Assembly (NCBI GenBank): GCA_018813685.1
Contig: JAHJAV010000008.1
Location: 1 to 33,981 of the forward strand
From: Nanobdellota archaeon
Lineage (GTDB): Archaea > Nanobdellota > Nanobdellia > Woesearchaeales > JACPBV01
Length of the DNA stretch: 33,981 nt
Reading direction: 5' to 3'
The notes beneath the pieces were generated by a model. It saw nothing but the letters and a program-made list of their open reading frames with translations, did no database searches and had not been told where the DNA came from. The position numbers and the translations under genes are program-made. This document shows, in pieces, positions 4,258 to 31,644 of the stretch; position 1 is the stretch's first letter; each line of letters opens with the position of its first letter.

Positions 4258-4755
4258 TTATCTCTTTAAATCTTCTCTTACAGCCTCTATAAACTCCTTT
4301 GCTTCATCAACCAGTTTCTTTACTATGGATGTATCCAGTATTGTTTCTGTGCCGTACTGGAATTTTTCTCTCAGATTTATTATTTCATCGCTTGCTGATT
4401 TTTCATCAAATGAGGCTATTTTCTTGAGCTGCTCCAAGCTTATTCCTGATTTTTTCTCTTTTATCAAAACCTCGACAGCTGCAAAAGTGCATTCCTGATT
4501 CCTAGATTCATATCCATTCTTTGCCAGAATAGCGAGCAGGCAATGATACATTGTGTAGAAGCATGCACTAACGGCCCAGTCCACAAAGCCGCCTTTCATA
4601 AGGTATTGCATAACAGTAAGATTGTGAATAGCCTTTTTTATGTAGTCATTTGCACTTTCAACAGAGGGCTGCACCTTCTTAAGCCCCCTATGCTTTTCTC
4701 CCTCTTTTTCTGCTTTGTTCAAGCACCATCTCAATTTGTTTTCAATCTGACCCAT
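4258..4755 (-). CDS. HEPN domain protein
   Basis: Helical protein with AVSACFYTMYHCLLAILAKNGYESRNQECTFAAVEVL; overlaps the upstream MNT gene. Confidence 0.75.
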   Translation of the reverse strand: MGQIENKLRWCLNKAEKEGEKHRGLKKVQPSVESANDYIKKAIHNLTVMQYLMKGGFVDWAVSACFYTMYHCLLAILAKNGYESRNQECTFAAVEVLIKEKKSGISLEQLKKIASFDEKSASDEIINLREKFQYGTETILDTSIVKKLVDEAKEFIEAVREDLKR

Positions 4756-5335
4756 TTTTAATCGCCTCGACTATTATTTCAGCCCCCCATAAAATCTTGC
4801 CGGTTTTTATTATGTCCAGGATTACCTTATCGCCTTTTTGGATATTTTTCAGCAAATCTTCTTTAGTCTGCATCAATTCATGTATTTTCTTTGGCTTAAG
4901 GGACTTTATTTTGCTTAATTCCTTGCTTACCCTGCTGAAATCTTTTTTTTCTAAGATAACCAATATATCTATATCGTTAGCTTCCTTTCCTTTAGTCAAT
5001 ACCGAACCAAATAAAACGCAACATAGGGTACTATCTTTCAAAGGGTTAAGATCTTCTGCCTGTATCTGTGCGTAAGGACTCAAATTATTCTGTATTAACA
5101 CCAACTCTGAAAGCTTTGCTCCAATCTCTTCATTCAAGTTTGGCTTGTAATATAGGGCATTGCCTATCTTCTCAGGCACAACTGCATTGATTTTTTCAAG
5201 TTTTTTTAGTATCTTGTATGCTCCCATAGGGCTTAGCTCTAGCCTTTTTCCTATCTCATTTACGCTGTTCCTTTCTTGGAAATTCCTTATCAAAAAGTCC
5301 ATTACCCTTGCTTCGTTTTGTGTTAAGCTTTGCAA
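4742..5335 (-). CDS. wHTH + MNT nucleotidyltransferase fusion (antitoxin-like)
   Basis: N-terminal wHTH (LIRNFQERNSVNEIGKRLELSPMGAYKILKKLEK) plus GSVLTKGKEANDIDILV (GS...DxD). TTG start with SD GGTG-atttaa-TTG. Confidence 0.8.
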   Translation of the reverse strand: MQSLTQNEARVMDFLIRNFQERNSVNEIGKRLELSPMGAYKILKKLEKINAVVPEKIGNALYYKPNLNEEIGAKLSELVLIQNNLSPYAQIQAEDLNPLKDSTLCCVLFGSVLTKGKEANDIDILVILEKKDFSRVSKELSKIKSLKPKKIHELMQTKEDLLKNIQKGDKVILDIIKTGKILWGAEIIVEAIKNGSD

Positions 5336-22317: not shown

Positions 22318-23574
22318 TTAATCGAATTCTTTGTAAATAGGGAATTCTACAGTTAGTTTTTCTACGTTCTTTCTTATTCCCTTCTTTAGATCCGCATTGC
22401 CAGGGTCTTTTAGCACACTTGTGATAAATTCTCCGGCTTGTTCCATTTCTCCTTCTTTCATTCCCCTTGTAGTTAGAGAAGGAGTTCCCATCCTGATACC
22501 TGAAGGGTCAAACGGACTTCTGGTTTCAAAAGGAATTGTGTTCCTGTTTGTATAGATCCCTGCTTCTTCCAAGGCTGTAGAACCTATTTTCCCGGTTATT
22601 CCAACTGAGGTTGCATCTATCAGGACTAAATGATTGTCTGTACCTCTGGATATTATCCTGATCCCATTATCTCCAAGAACTTTAGCCAATATTGCTGCAT
22701 TCTTTTTTATTTGCTCCTGGTAAGGCTTAAAATCAGGTTTCATTGCTTCTTCAAAGCAGACTGCTTTTGCTGCAATAACATGTTCCATTGGCCCACCCTG
22801 CAAGCCAGGAAATACTGCTTTGTCTATCTGTTTTGCAAATTTTTCTTTACATAATATGATTGCACTTCTAGGTCCACGAAGAGTTTTATGCGTTGTTGTC
22901 ATTACAATATCCGCAGAACTGCAGTCTTTATGCACTCCTCCAAGAATTAAACCTACAATGTGGCTTACATCAGCCAGATGAACTGCACCTATTTCATGGG
23001 CAATCTTTGTGAACTTGTCAAAGTCTATTTCTCTTGGATAAGCTGTTGCTCCTGAAATAATCATTTTTGGCTTTTCTTTATGAGCTAGTTCAGCTAACTT
23101 ATCATAATTTATTCTTTCAGTATCCTTCTCAACACCATAATGAATCATATTGTAGAGTTTGCCAGAGAAATTAACAGGGCTCCCATGGGTTAAATGCCCG
23201 CCATGGCTTAAGTCCATGCCCATTGCTTTGTCCCCTACATTTAGCATTGCAAAGTAAACAGCTTGGTTGGCTGTAGAGCCTGCATTTGGCTGGACATTGG
23301 CGTGATCTGCTTTAAAGAGTTTTTTTGCCCTTTCAATAGCTAAGTTCTCTATTTGATCAATAAACTGGTTTCCTGTATAATATCTTTTTCCAGGATAGCC
23401 TTCTGAATATTTATTAGATAATGGGGTTCCCATTGCTTCTAAAACAGCAACAGAAGCATGATTTTCAGAGGGAATCATACACAAACCGTTTTTTTGCCTG
23501 TTAATCTCGCTTTTGACTAAATTATAAACAACACTGTCTTGTTTTTTTAATGATTCTAACATATTACCACCCAT
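22318..23574 (-). CDS. glyA: serine hydroxymethyltransferase
   Basis: IPSENHAS, NKYSEGYPGKRYYTGN, VQPNAGSTANQAVY, TTTHKTLRGPRSAII. Probably starts at ATG 23562 (GGTGGTAAT-ATG). Confidence 0.95.
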   Translation of the reverse strand: MGGNMLESLKKQDSVVYNLVKSEINRQKNGLCMIPSENHASVAVLEAMGTPLSNKYSEGYPGKRYYTGNQFIDQIENLAIERAKKLFKADHANVQPNAGSTANQAVYFAMLNVGDKAMGMDLSHGGHLTHGSPVNFSGKLYNMIHYGVEKDTERINYDKLAELAHKEKPKMIISGATAYPREIDFDKFTKIAHEIGAVHLADVSHIVGLILGGVHKDCSSADIVMTTTHKTLRGPRSAIILCKEKFAKQIDKAVFPGLQGGPMEHVIAAKAVCFEEAMKPDFKPYQEQIKKNAAILAKVLGDNGIRIISRGTDNHLVLIDATSVGITGKIGSTALEEAGIYTNRNTIPFETRSPFDPSGIRMGTPSLTTRGMKEGEMEQAGEFITSVLKDPGNADLKKGIRKNVEKLTVEFPIYKEFD

Positions 23575-23597: not shown

Positions 23598-23628
23598 AAA
23601 TACATTTCTATACTTCACTAATCACTTT
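23598..23628. repeat. 31-bp direct repeat, copy A (flanks Fic cassette)
   Basis: AAATACATTTCTATACTTCACTAATCACTTT, exact match to 24843-24873. Confidence 0.95.
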
Positions 23629-23641
23629 CTATTTGGTCGAA

Positions 23642-24658
23642 CTAATAAATCCTAATCCTTCCTTTTTGTATCTCCCACCTGCCGATGCTAGAGGAGCCGC
23701 CCTTTATGATTCCTTCTTTCTTGTATTCATCAATCATTTTTCCTGTTTTCTTTAGCTGCTCAACAAAGTATTTTGCAAGCTTGCTCTCTCTTCTTTCAAT
23801 AGCTTTTGCGAGAGCATTGCTGTAAGACCTGTGATTTTCGCTAAAGAATATTACTGGCATAAAAAAAGACTTCATAAGCAAAGCGTTGAGCAAAATCCTG
23901 CCTACCCTACCATTGCCATCCTGAAATGGATGTATCTGTTCGAACTTCCAATGAAACTTAAGCGATATAATGGGGGTGTATTCCTTTTTCATTCTGCCCT
24001 TAAGCCAAGATATAAGCATATTAATCTCTTCCTTTACTTTCTCTTTGGGTGTTGTTATTGATGCTATTCCGCCTGCGCCTACTACATTATTTGCCGCTTT
24101 GTACTTTCCAGCTATTTCATCATCAATCCCTTTAAACAACAGCATATGGATTTTTCTCAGTGAGGCAGAATTCCATTTCATATCCTTTGAAAAAGCAAAG
24201 TTTATTGCATCCAGTGAGTTTACAATTTCTATGTCTATTTTAGTCCTAGGTTTTTTTCTTTTGTTTATTATTTTTTCAATGTCCCCCCGTGTTACTCTGG
24301 AGCCTTCAGCGCGATTCGAGTTTAAAACGAAAAGGGTGACAAATAAGTCTTTAAATAGCTTGAATTCATTTTCGTTCAATTCATGGTTGATGAAGTGATA
24401 CCAAGCACGAGTGCTTTCAATTCTTTGTATGCCATTCGGAGGAAAATAATCTAATATTTCTTTACCCATTTTTTGGGCAGCTATTTTACCAATCTCCTCG
24501 AAATAGCCTTTTAGCTTTTCTTTCAGCTCTTCCTGAGAAAGAAGCTTCTTTCCTAAGTACCGTGTGAACAGTATCCTTTTTCCTTCTGTAGTTCTGAATG
24601 GGAATTCGAAGTAGTAATACTCTATGCCCTTGATTACCTTTTTTCTTATATATTGCAT
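23642..24658 (-). CDS. Fic-family protein (probable AMP-transferase)
   Basis: HPFQDGNGRVGRIL core motif; SNRAEG matches the (S/T)xxxE(G/N) inhibitory motif. Confidence 0.92.
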   Translation of the reverse strand: MQYIRKKVIKGIEYYYFEFPFRTTEGKRILFTRYLGKKLLSQEELKEKLKGYFEEIGKIAAQKMGKEILDYFPPNGIQRIESTRAWYHFINHELNENEFKLFKDLFVTLFVLNSNRAEGSRVTRGDIEKIINKRKKPRTKIDIEIVNSLDAINFAFSKDMKWNSASLRKIHMLLFKGIDDEIAGKYKAANNVVGAGGIASITTPKEKVKEEINMLISWLKGRMKKEYTPIISLKFHWKFEQIHPFQDGNGRVGRILLNALLMKSFFMPVIFFSENHRSYSNALAKAIERRESKLAKYFVEQLKKTGKMIDEYKKEGIIKGGSSSIGRWEIQKGRIRIY

Positions 24659-24842
24659 AGAAAACAGTTAGGCGTCAAATCTTTATAAATTTTTCTATTT
24701 TTGTCGGATATTTCAGGGTTTATCGTCTAGATGGTTAACTTATTTTTTGGTAAAAATGGTTGTTTTGGTTAGGCGTAAGAATCCGAGCAGAAGTTAAATA
24801 TAAACCCTTCGATTGAAGATAATACTAATTATCCAAGAGAAG

Positions 24843-24873
24843 AAATACATTTCTATACTTCACTAATCACTTT
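24843..24873. repeat. 31-bp direct repeat, copy B (3' end of the 5-FCL gene)
   Basis: Identical to 23598-23628; encodes the KVISEV* end of the 5-FCL gene. Confidence 0.95.
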
Positions 24874-31278: not shown

Positions 31279-31644
31279 GTGTTTTTTATGACGCAAGATT
31301 TTAAAAAACTTGAAGTATGGAAGCTGGCACATCAGTTTACATTAGACATCTATAGACTAACAGCTAACTTCCCAAAAGACGAAAGATTTGGAATGACACA
31401 GCAATTTAGAAGAGCATCATCATCAATTGGCGCTAATATCGCAGAAGGGGCTGGTAGAAAGACAAATAAGGACTTTGCTAGGGCTTTATACTTTAGCTCT
31501 GGTTCAATTAAGGAAATAGAGCACTTTCTGTTGTTAGCGAAGGATCTAAACTACATAGATATCTGTAAGTTTAATGCATTTAATCAGCAGTTAGAATCCA
31601 TAGCAAAGATGCTCAACAAGTTCATACAATGCCTGCATAAGTAA
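31279..31644 (+). CDS. four-helix-bundle protein (23S rRNA IVP/Avd-like, TIGR02436)
   Basis: FKKLEVWKLAHQFTLDIYRLTANFPKDERFGMTQQFRRASSSIGANIAEGAGRKT; SD GGTG-tttttt-ATG. Confidence 0.9.
   Translation: MFFMTQDFKKLEVWKLAHQFTLDIYRLTANFPKDERFGMTQQFRRASSSIGANIAEGAGRKTNKDFARALYFSSGSIKEIEHFLLLAKDLNYIDICKFNAFNQQLESIAKMLNKFIQCLHK

Follow-up and report, generated by a model that had tools for sequence, protein, structure and literature searches.

How do single toxin genes enter small archaeal genomes when they bring no recombinase of their own? This has been asked ever since restriction-modification genes were found to be accompanied by long target duplications, and the question is raised by a Fic gene on contig JAHJAV010000008.1 of a Nanobdellota archaeon (assembly GCA_018813685.1; 1.56 Mb, fragmented, 128 contigs). 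The stretch of DNA analysed, here called the window, comprises positions 1 to 33,981 of the forward strand of this contig. In the window, the Fic gene lies between the genes for 5-formyltetrahydrofolate cyclo-ligase (5-FCL) and serine hydroxymethyltransferase (glyA), and it is bounded by two copies of the 31-bp direct repeat AAATACATTTCTATACTTCACTAATCACTTT (Table 1). It is probable that the Fic gene was inserted at the 5-FCL–glyA junction, as a member of a class of cassettes that recurs in the order, and small toxin genes in these archaea appear to spread.

The repeat, the cassette and the empty junction

The two copies of the repeat match without a mismatch, and sequence identity ends sharply at both sides of them. 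On the minus (coding) strand the 31-mer reads AAAGTGATTAGTGAAGTATAG followed by AAATGTATTT, i.e., the last seven codons of the 5-FCL gene (KVISEV*) and the 10 bp downstream. KVISEV* is present in both copies: the 3′ end of the 5-FCL gene is duplicated and regenerated. The first-pass annotation, which had described an exact repeat with one copy forming the coding 3′ end of 5-FCL and the other lying between Fic and glyA, is correct in these respects. No match of this kind arose in 100 dinucleotide shuffles, and a comparison of 400 kb of a relative with its reversed sequence gave two 16-bp pairs and none longer, which together rule out a chance repeat. The 31-mer has only two copies in the whole 1.56-Mb assembly (searched at up to 3 mismatches) and is not spread over many unrelated loci, so a scattered family of genomic repeats is also ruled out; an exact copy was absent from the viral contigs searched.

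Within the segment between the copies, Fic is the sole credible gene (a 142-aa ORF on the opposite strand is nested inside it), and neither the ORF list nor a domain search gave a recombinase, integrase or transposase ORF there. Thus, the earlier description of a 1.2-kb, Fic-only segment without a recombinase holds. No inverted-repeat pair was found at the two cassette ends. An insertion sequence or transposon was rejected, as there is no transposase, there are no terminal inverted repeats, and the duplication is long and variable. A plasmid origin of Fic was likewise set aside, as only distant Fic matches were obtained, none covering 80%.

The Fic protein is predicted to be a toxin-like AMP-transferase: the active-site motif HPFQDGNGRVGR can be read in the translation, as can an N-terminal SNRAEG that fits the inhibitory-helix pattern [ST]xxxE[GN] of class II, and its relatives of solved structure are 4x2e, FICD and SoFic. 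The N-terminal domain (YIRKK..YYYFE..RYLG) is predicted to fold as beta-beta-beta-alpha (AlphaFold2, residues 1-62, mean pLDDT 85). A fold search of this domain against the PDB gave no significant match (best E 0.11, to PC4) and lent no support to a DNA-binding fold; the co-variation of DNA motifs with the domain, judged by eye, suggests that it may bind DNA. The 9-bp motif ACGCCTAAC upstream of Fic is presumed to be an operator, since other Fic genes have comparable motif pairs. Two copies of GTTAGGC lie upstream of Fic, at neither cassette junction; the junctions are host gene ends.

Table 1. Features of the Fic locus in the window (positions in the 33,981-nucleotide stretch)
Feature	Positions	Strand	Basis and remarks
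glyA, serine hydroxymethyltransferase, 418 aa	22318..23574	-	PF00464, E 4.4e-149
glyA promoter element GAAATGTATTTAAA	23595..23608	-	spans outer edge of repeat copy 2; conserved in G003 as GAAATATATTTAAA
Repeat copy 2	23598..23628	-	exact match; glyA side, between Fic and glyA
Probable inserted cassette, 1,214 bp	23629..24842	-	absent from G003 and several other 5-FCL–glyA junctions of the order
Fic protein, 338 aa	23642..24658	-	PF02661, E 1.6e-17; motifs read from translation
9-bp motif ACGCCTAAC, copy 1	24667..24675	-	sequence; between TATA and Fic start codon
Putative Fic promoter TATA-like element TTTATAAA	24682..24689	-	sequence
9-bp motif ACGCCTAAC, copy 2	24768..24776	-	sequence; upstream of Fic
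Repeat copy 1	24843..24873	-	exact match; 5-FCL last 7 codons (KVISEV*, 24853-24873) and 10 bp downstream
5-formyltetrahydrofolate cyclo-ligase (5-FCL), 179 aa	24853..25392	-	PF01812, E 7.8e-41, ORF; target gene, upstream side

In Candidatus Nanoarchaeia archaeon PL23a_bin.24 (G003), which belongs to the same family as the window genome, the genes folD, glyA, 5-FCL and NaPi (a Na/Pi-cotransporter-like gene) follow one another uninterrupted, in the same order and orientation as in the window, without Fic. Several other genomes of the order have 5-FCL and glyA directly adjoining, or nearly so, also without Fic. G003 is a distant relative: its 5-FCL is only 43% identical to that of the window, and its GlyA 86% (for the window gene, an in-frame ATG at 23562 is a possible alternative start). 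About 50 bp before the start of glyA, G003 has GAAATATATTTAAA, and GAAATGTATTTAAA stands at the equal distance in the window; when the flanks of the window are joined without the cassette, they align to the G003 junction through GAAATRTATTTAAA. The adjacency in G003, together with the matching glyA promoter element, supports an unoccupied 5-FCL–glyA ancestor, which is what the first-pass annotation had proposed along with a duplication of 31 bp. No relative was found that has Fic at this site but lacks the repeats, and the 5-FCL–glyA intervals of other relatives contained no cassette with a copy of the 5-FCL 3′ end (score of at least 36).

The glyA promoter element straddles the outer edge of the repeat. 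To judge from this distant relative, the 31-mer would once have been a single copy that ended the 5-FCL gene and also contributed to the promoter of glyA; its duplication would have kept both functions whole. Probably, a horizontally acquired cassette of one gene, Fic, with its own promoter, entered at the junction and duplicated 31 bp of target, so that the C-terminus of 5-FCL was retained at one edge of the insert and the promoter element of glyA at the opposite edge.

A reading without any insertion, in which the 3′ end of 5-FCL was duplicated locally, the repeat arose by chance or the assembly is in error, is very improbable. The assembly is fragmented, with the window as one of its contigs, and 31 is also a common k-mer size in assembly; however, a misjoin would require Fic DNA with the same 31-mer at both ends, other assemblies have different repeats flanking Fic (up to 63 bp), control sequence gave no chance pairs above 16 bp, and the empty junction is present in relatives.

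Recurrence around Fic genes of the order

Ninety-eight distinct Fic genes of the order were collected from loci around matches in 59 of 98 genomes, the assemblies being mostly metagenomic and fragmented. At 22 of the 98 genes the two flanks share an exact direct repeat of 16 bp or longer; the same holds for none of 235 control ORFs, which were taken from the same DNA and are neighbours of Fic genes, not random genome genes (p = 3e-13). By inspection, made after the repeats had been seen, 16 of the 22 were classed as target-like duplications of unrelated sequences (p = 1e-9) and the remaining 6 repeat pairs as copies of a Fic-specific motif. Repeats of at least 25 bp occur at 10 Fic loci (p = 3e-6). 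The longest target-like repeats are 63, 59, 48, 47, 42, 39, 31 (the window), 29, 26 and 25 bp, and the spacing of nearly all target-like repeats is about 1.0-1.3 kb, i.e., one Fic gene. No long repeat flanks the other 76 of the 98, which suggests that mobility there is old or took another route.

The targets at gene 3′ ends include the genes for iPGM (L086, 63 bp exact), a sugar-nucleotidyltransferase-like protein (L053) and the TctA transporter (L078). Gene 5′ ends are duplicated too (L115, L119), some target-like repeats lie near no gene end, and by eye neither a common core across the repeats, nor a consensus at the cassette termini, nor terminal inverted repeats were seen. The first-pass annotation had likened the event to att-site integration at a gene 3′ end. 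The regenerated 3′ end agrees with this, but a dedicated att site is not established, because among the 98 Fic loci the repeats all differ, some are at 5′ ends or away from any gene end, and inspection by eye revealed no core that they have in common.

Duplicate copies are not always exact: at L053 and L077 most of the differences are codon changes of a synonymous or conservative kind, together with a swapped stop codon. At L130 the repeats measure 131-165 bp and may represent a repetitive element instead of duplicated target. A third copy at L089 resembles the 3′ half of a tRNA; ARAGORN and Rfam called no tRNA there, and an association with tRNA was set aside.

Many Fic genes have a 9-14 bp motif of their own, such as GGTGACCACA (L039), TTACCCTTTACA, TGTAGTGGTTAAC, TGTAAGCCCTAA, TGTATGGGCACA and others; examples are found at L039, L049, L055, L085, L104, L113, L066, L071 and L099. 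The motif often flanks the TATA box, with a further copy directly after the stop codon. A 10-bp word common to both flanks was found at 35 of 98 Fic loci (some of these being target duplications) versus at most 8 of 250 controls. The motif seems to vary with the N-terminal subtype of Fic, which suggests self-regulation or a cassette end.

Other cargo, arrays and possible routes of entry

The pattern goes beyond what the first-pass annotation described: it recurs with Fic and with other toxin-antitoxin cargo, and it forms arrays. When 400 kb of G068, and then a further 400 kb, were scanned without bias, gene-sized inserts were found between long repeats: some metabolic genes, as well as MNT-HEPN pairs and an AbiE-like pair. 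A 378-kb contig of G003 had no such inserts, save a possible IS200-type element and paralogues. Genome-wide duplication of gene 3′ ends is clear in G068, where it comes partly from tandem paralogues, which turn up in the control columns too, and was not found on the 378-kb G003 contig. The metabolic inserts of G068 lie between long direct repeats in the tiles L151-L170 of G068:C1 and, as annotated from the sequence, comprise a pyrroline-5-carboxylate reductase-like gene, a dehydroquinate synthase-like gene, a cation antiporter-like gene and a RelA-linked block.

In the genome of the window itself (L059), an MNT-HEPN pair is inserted at the 3′ end of a PD-(D/E)XK gene, the displaced copy encoding PEPSKECNYCRWVKDCKLY and a stop codon versus PEPSKECNYCRWVDSNHKLS and a stop codon. 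The contig of the Fic cassette also has, at 4258-5335 (-), an HTH MNT-like gene followed by a HEPN-like gene (annotated by eye; no long repeat was noticed around them) and, at 31279-31644 (+), a gene of the 23S rRNA-intervening-sequence protein family (PF05635). A separate sample of HepT loci had spanning repeats in 5 of 30; one of the five, L318, coincides with L078, an array of G018. That array consists of the TctA gene end, an MNT-HepT pair, end copy 2, Fic and end copy 3, and all three end copies keep the frame to the stop codon. At L158 (5100-9990; about 745-750 kb on G068:C1), four copies of the 3′ end of a cupredoxin-like gene separate three cassettes of toxin-antitoxin type, i.e., an MNT-like cluster, an MNT-HEPN pair and an AbiE-like pair. 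Copies 1 and 4, on the outside, are almost identical (score 80 over 45 bp), and copies 2 and 3, on the inside, have diverged, as would be expected had an entire foreign array entered this gene end anew. At L317 (G092:C12), the 3′ end of one gene is present in two diverged copies, which enclose both an MNT-HEPN pair and a ParE-like pair. Arrays such as L078 and L158 offer natural records of insertions made one after another at a single site.

Ten differing pairs of duplicate gene ends (among them two each from L078 and L158) show 36 synonymous versus 18 non-synonymous codon differences. Under full neutrality about 46 non-synonymous differences are expected, and none of 5000 simulations gave as few as 18; under a half-neutral model, with constraint on the gene-proximal copy alone, about 24 are expected, and the observed count is compatible with it (P 0.07). 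The repeated use of one end and the mainly synonymous differences favour recombination between homologous gene ends, whereas the varied targets, the duplication of 5′ ends as well, and the lack by eye of a core or a terminus consensus favour a less specific process such as insertion with long target duplication (ILTD).

Three routes can be weighed against these observations. An illegitimate process may have placed a linear or circular fragment at any position while duplicating 20-80 bp there, and those insertions that spare both neighbours would then be retained by selection. This is a serious though tentative possibility: the lengths and sequences of the repeats vary, boundaries are sharp in the exact cases, 3′ ends, 5′ ends and junctions are all used, no terminus consensus or terminal inverted repeat is seen by eye, and such a class is known for restriction-modification genes (PMC3031569, PMC1643837). 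Alone, however, it does not explain the block of diverged end copies at the same gene end in L158.

Another route is site-specific integration, in which a tyrosine recombinase from elsewhere would join a circular cassette carrying a gene end (attP) to the resident end (attB), regenerating the gene. Gene 3′ ends are indeed regenerated, the reuse of one end yields arrays such as L078 and L158, and the displaced copies are diverged yet frame-preserving, as the codon counts indicate. Tyrosine integrases were present in 11 of 11 genomes checked, and in two cases one lies about 0.4-0.6 kb from a Fic gene (G030:C120:7028-8841 and G068:C1:856306-858220, the latter of 227 aa at C1:856306). This route is nevertheless somewhat unlikely, since the targets are many and unrelated with no common core by eye, 5′ ends are duplicated too (L115, L119, L327), none of the examined cassettes contains an integrase, a genome-wide repeat scan gave no repeat pair around the G068 integrase, no tie between any tyrosine integrase and these repeats was found in the 11 genomes, and the half-neutral model leaves room for weaker constraint on the displaced copies.

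Homologous recombination could achieve the same without a special enzyme, by a single crossover of the Campbell type with a circle made of the cassette and the orthologous gene 3′ end of a relative. The diverged, coding-conserved duplicate ends and the arrays would thereby be accounted for, but recombination would be required over 30-70 bp that are often mismatched, and the arrival of the first cassette would be left unexplained; we consider this unlikely.

The repeats, the empty site, the recurrence and the arrays are observed; from them we infer the direction of the event, the mobility of the cassettes, and an agent acting in trans, be it a recombinase or homologous recombination of circular cassettes. 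Neither an excised circle nor polymorphism within a population was observed. In the preferred account, the Fic cassette of the window would belong to a recurrent class of recombinase-free cassettes of toxin-antitoxin type (Fic, MNT-HEPN, AbiE-like, ParE-like) in this order of Nanoarchaeia, which would enter at gene ends or intergenic junctions, become bounded by duplications of 20-80 bp of host sequence and, by repeated entry at one site, form arrays. This gives a concrete and repeatable signature for the entry of single toxin or toxin-antitoxin genes into small archaeal genomes without a recombinase of their own, and DPANN genomes at large can be searched for it.

Comparison with known systems

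Elements with tyrosine integrases that insert at the 3′ ends of tRNA or protein genes are bounded by direct repeats that regenerate the 3′ end, and they undergo tandem accretion. Here, too, a gene 3′ end is duplicated and regenerated, and there is tandem accretion. However, there is no integrase in the cassette, many target genes are involved and 5′ ends are used. Nor is there an att core in common with other loci: within the genome, the 31-mer is present only at this locus, and the repeats of other loci are unrelated to it.

The dif/pdif modules of Acinetobacter (for example PMC6449649, PMC13141974) are likewise recombinase-free cassettes that include toxin-antitoxin genes, and they are moved by Xer recombination in trans. 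They differ in using one conserved Xer site, whereas the cassettes described here have locus-specific host repeats in direct orientation.

In superintegrons (PMC2654758), as here, small and often toxin-antitoxin cassettes form arrays with repeats between them. The separators here are copies of host gene ends, apparently in place of attC sites, and the Fic cassettes have their own promoter. An integron-like system in Nanoarchaeia, in which the attachment sites of recombinase-free toxin-antitoxin cassettes would be ordinary host gene ends, each cassette carrying the gene end of its previous host and a recombinase in trans inserting cassettes serially at the same ends across species, is a speculative and rather unlikely extension of this comparison.

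With regard to the cargo, Fic shares its active site and inhibitory-helix motif with class II Fic AMP-transferases (FICD, SoFic; 4x2e and others). It differs from them in the N-terminal beta-beta-beta-alpha domain, for which the PDB search found no solved relative, and in that, in relatives, the gene has a cognate DNA motif on either side. Contact with DNA is known for one Fic enzyme, that of Coxiella, which is induced by DNA binding (PMC10628234).

There is also a likeness in kind to the ILTD of restriction-modification genes in Helicobacter pylori (Nobusato et al. 2000, as cited in PMC3031569 and PMC1643837), where selfish, addiction-like cargo in a gene-sized insert is accompanied by a long and variable direct duplication of the target, as inferred from related genomes. 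At the window locus, the insert is absent from the orthologous site of the distant relative G003, contains no recombinase and has no terminal inverted repeats; the duplication is 31 bp here, and nine further Fic loci of the target-like kind have exact duplications of 25-63 bp. The cargo differs, being restriction-modification genes there and Fic here, with MNT-HEPN elsewhere; the hosts here are archaea, arrays form at one gene end, and the displaced copies can be diverged, frame-preserving ends. Among the open-access papers covered, the archaeal setting, the Fic and MNT-HEPN cargo, the arrays and the coding-conserved displaced ends are new.
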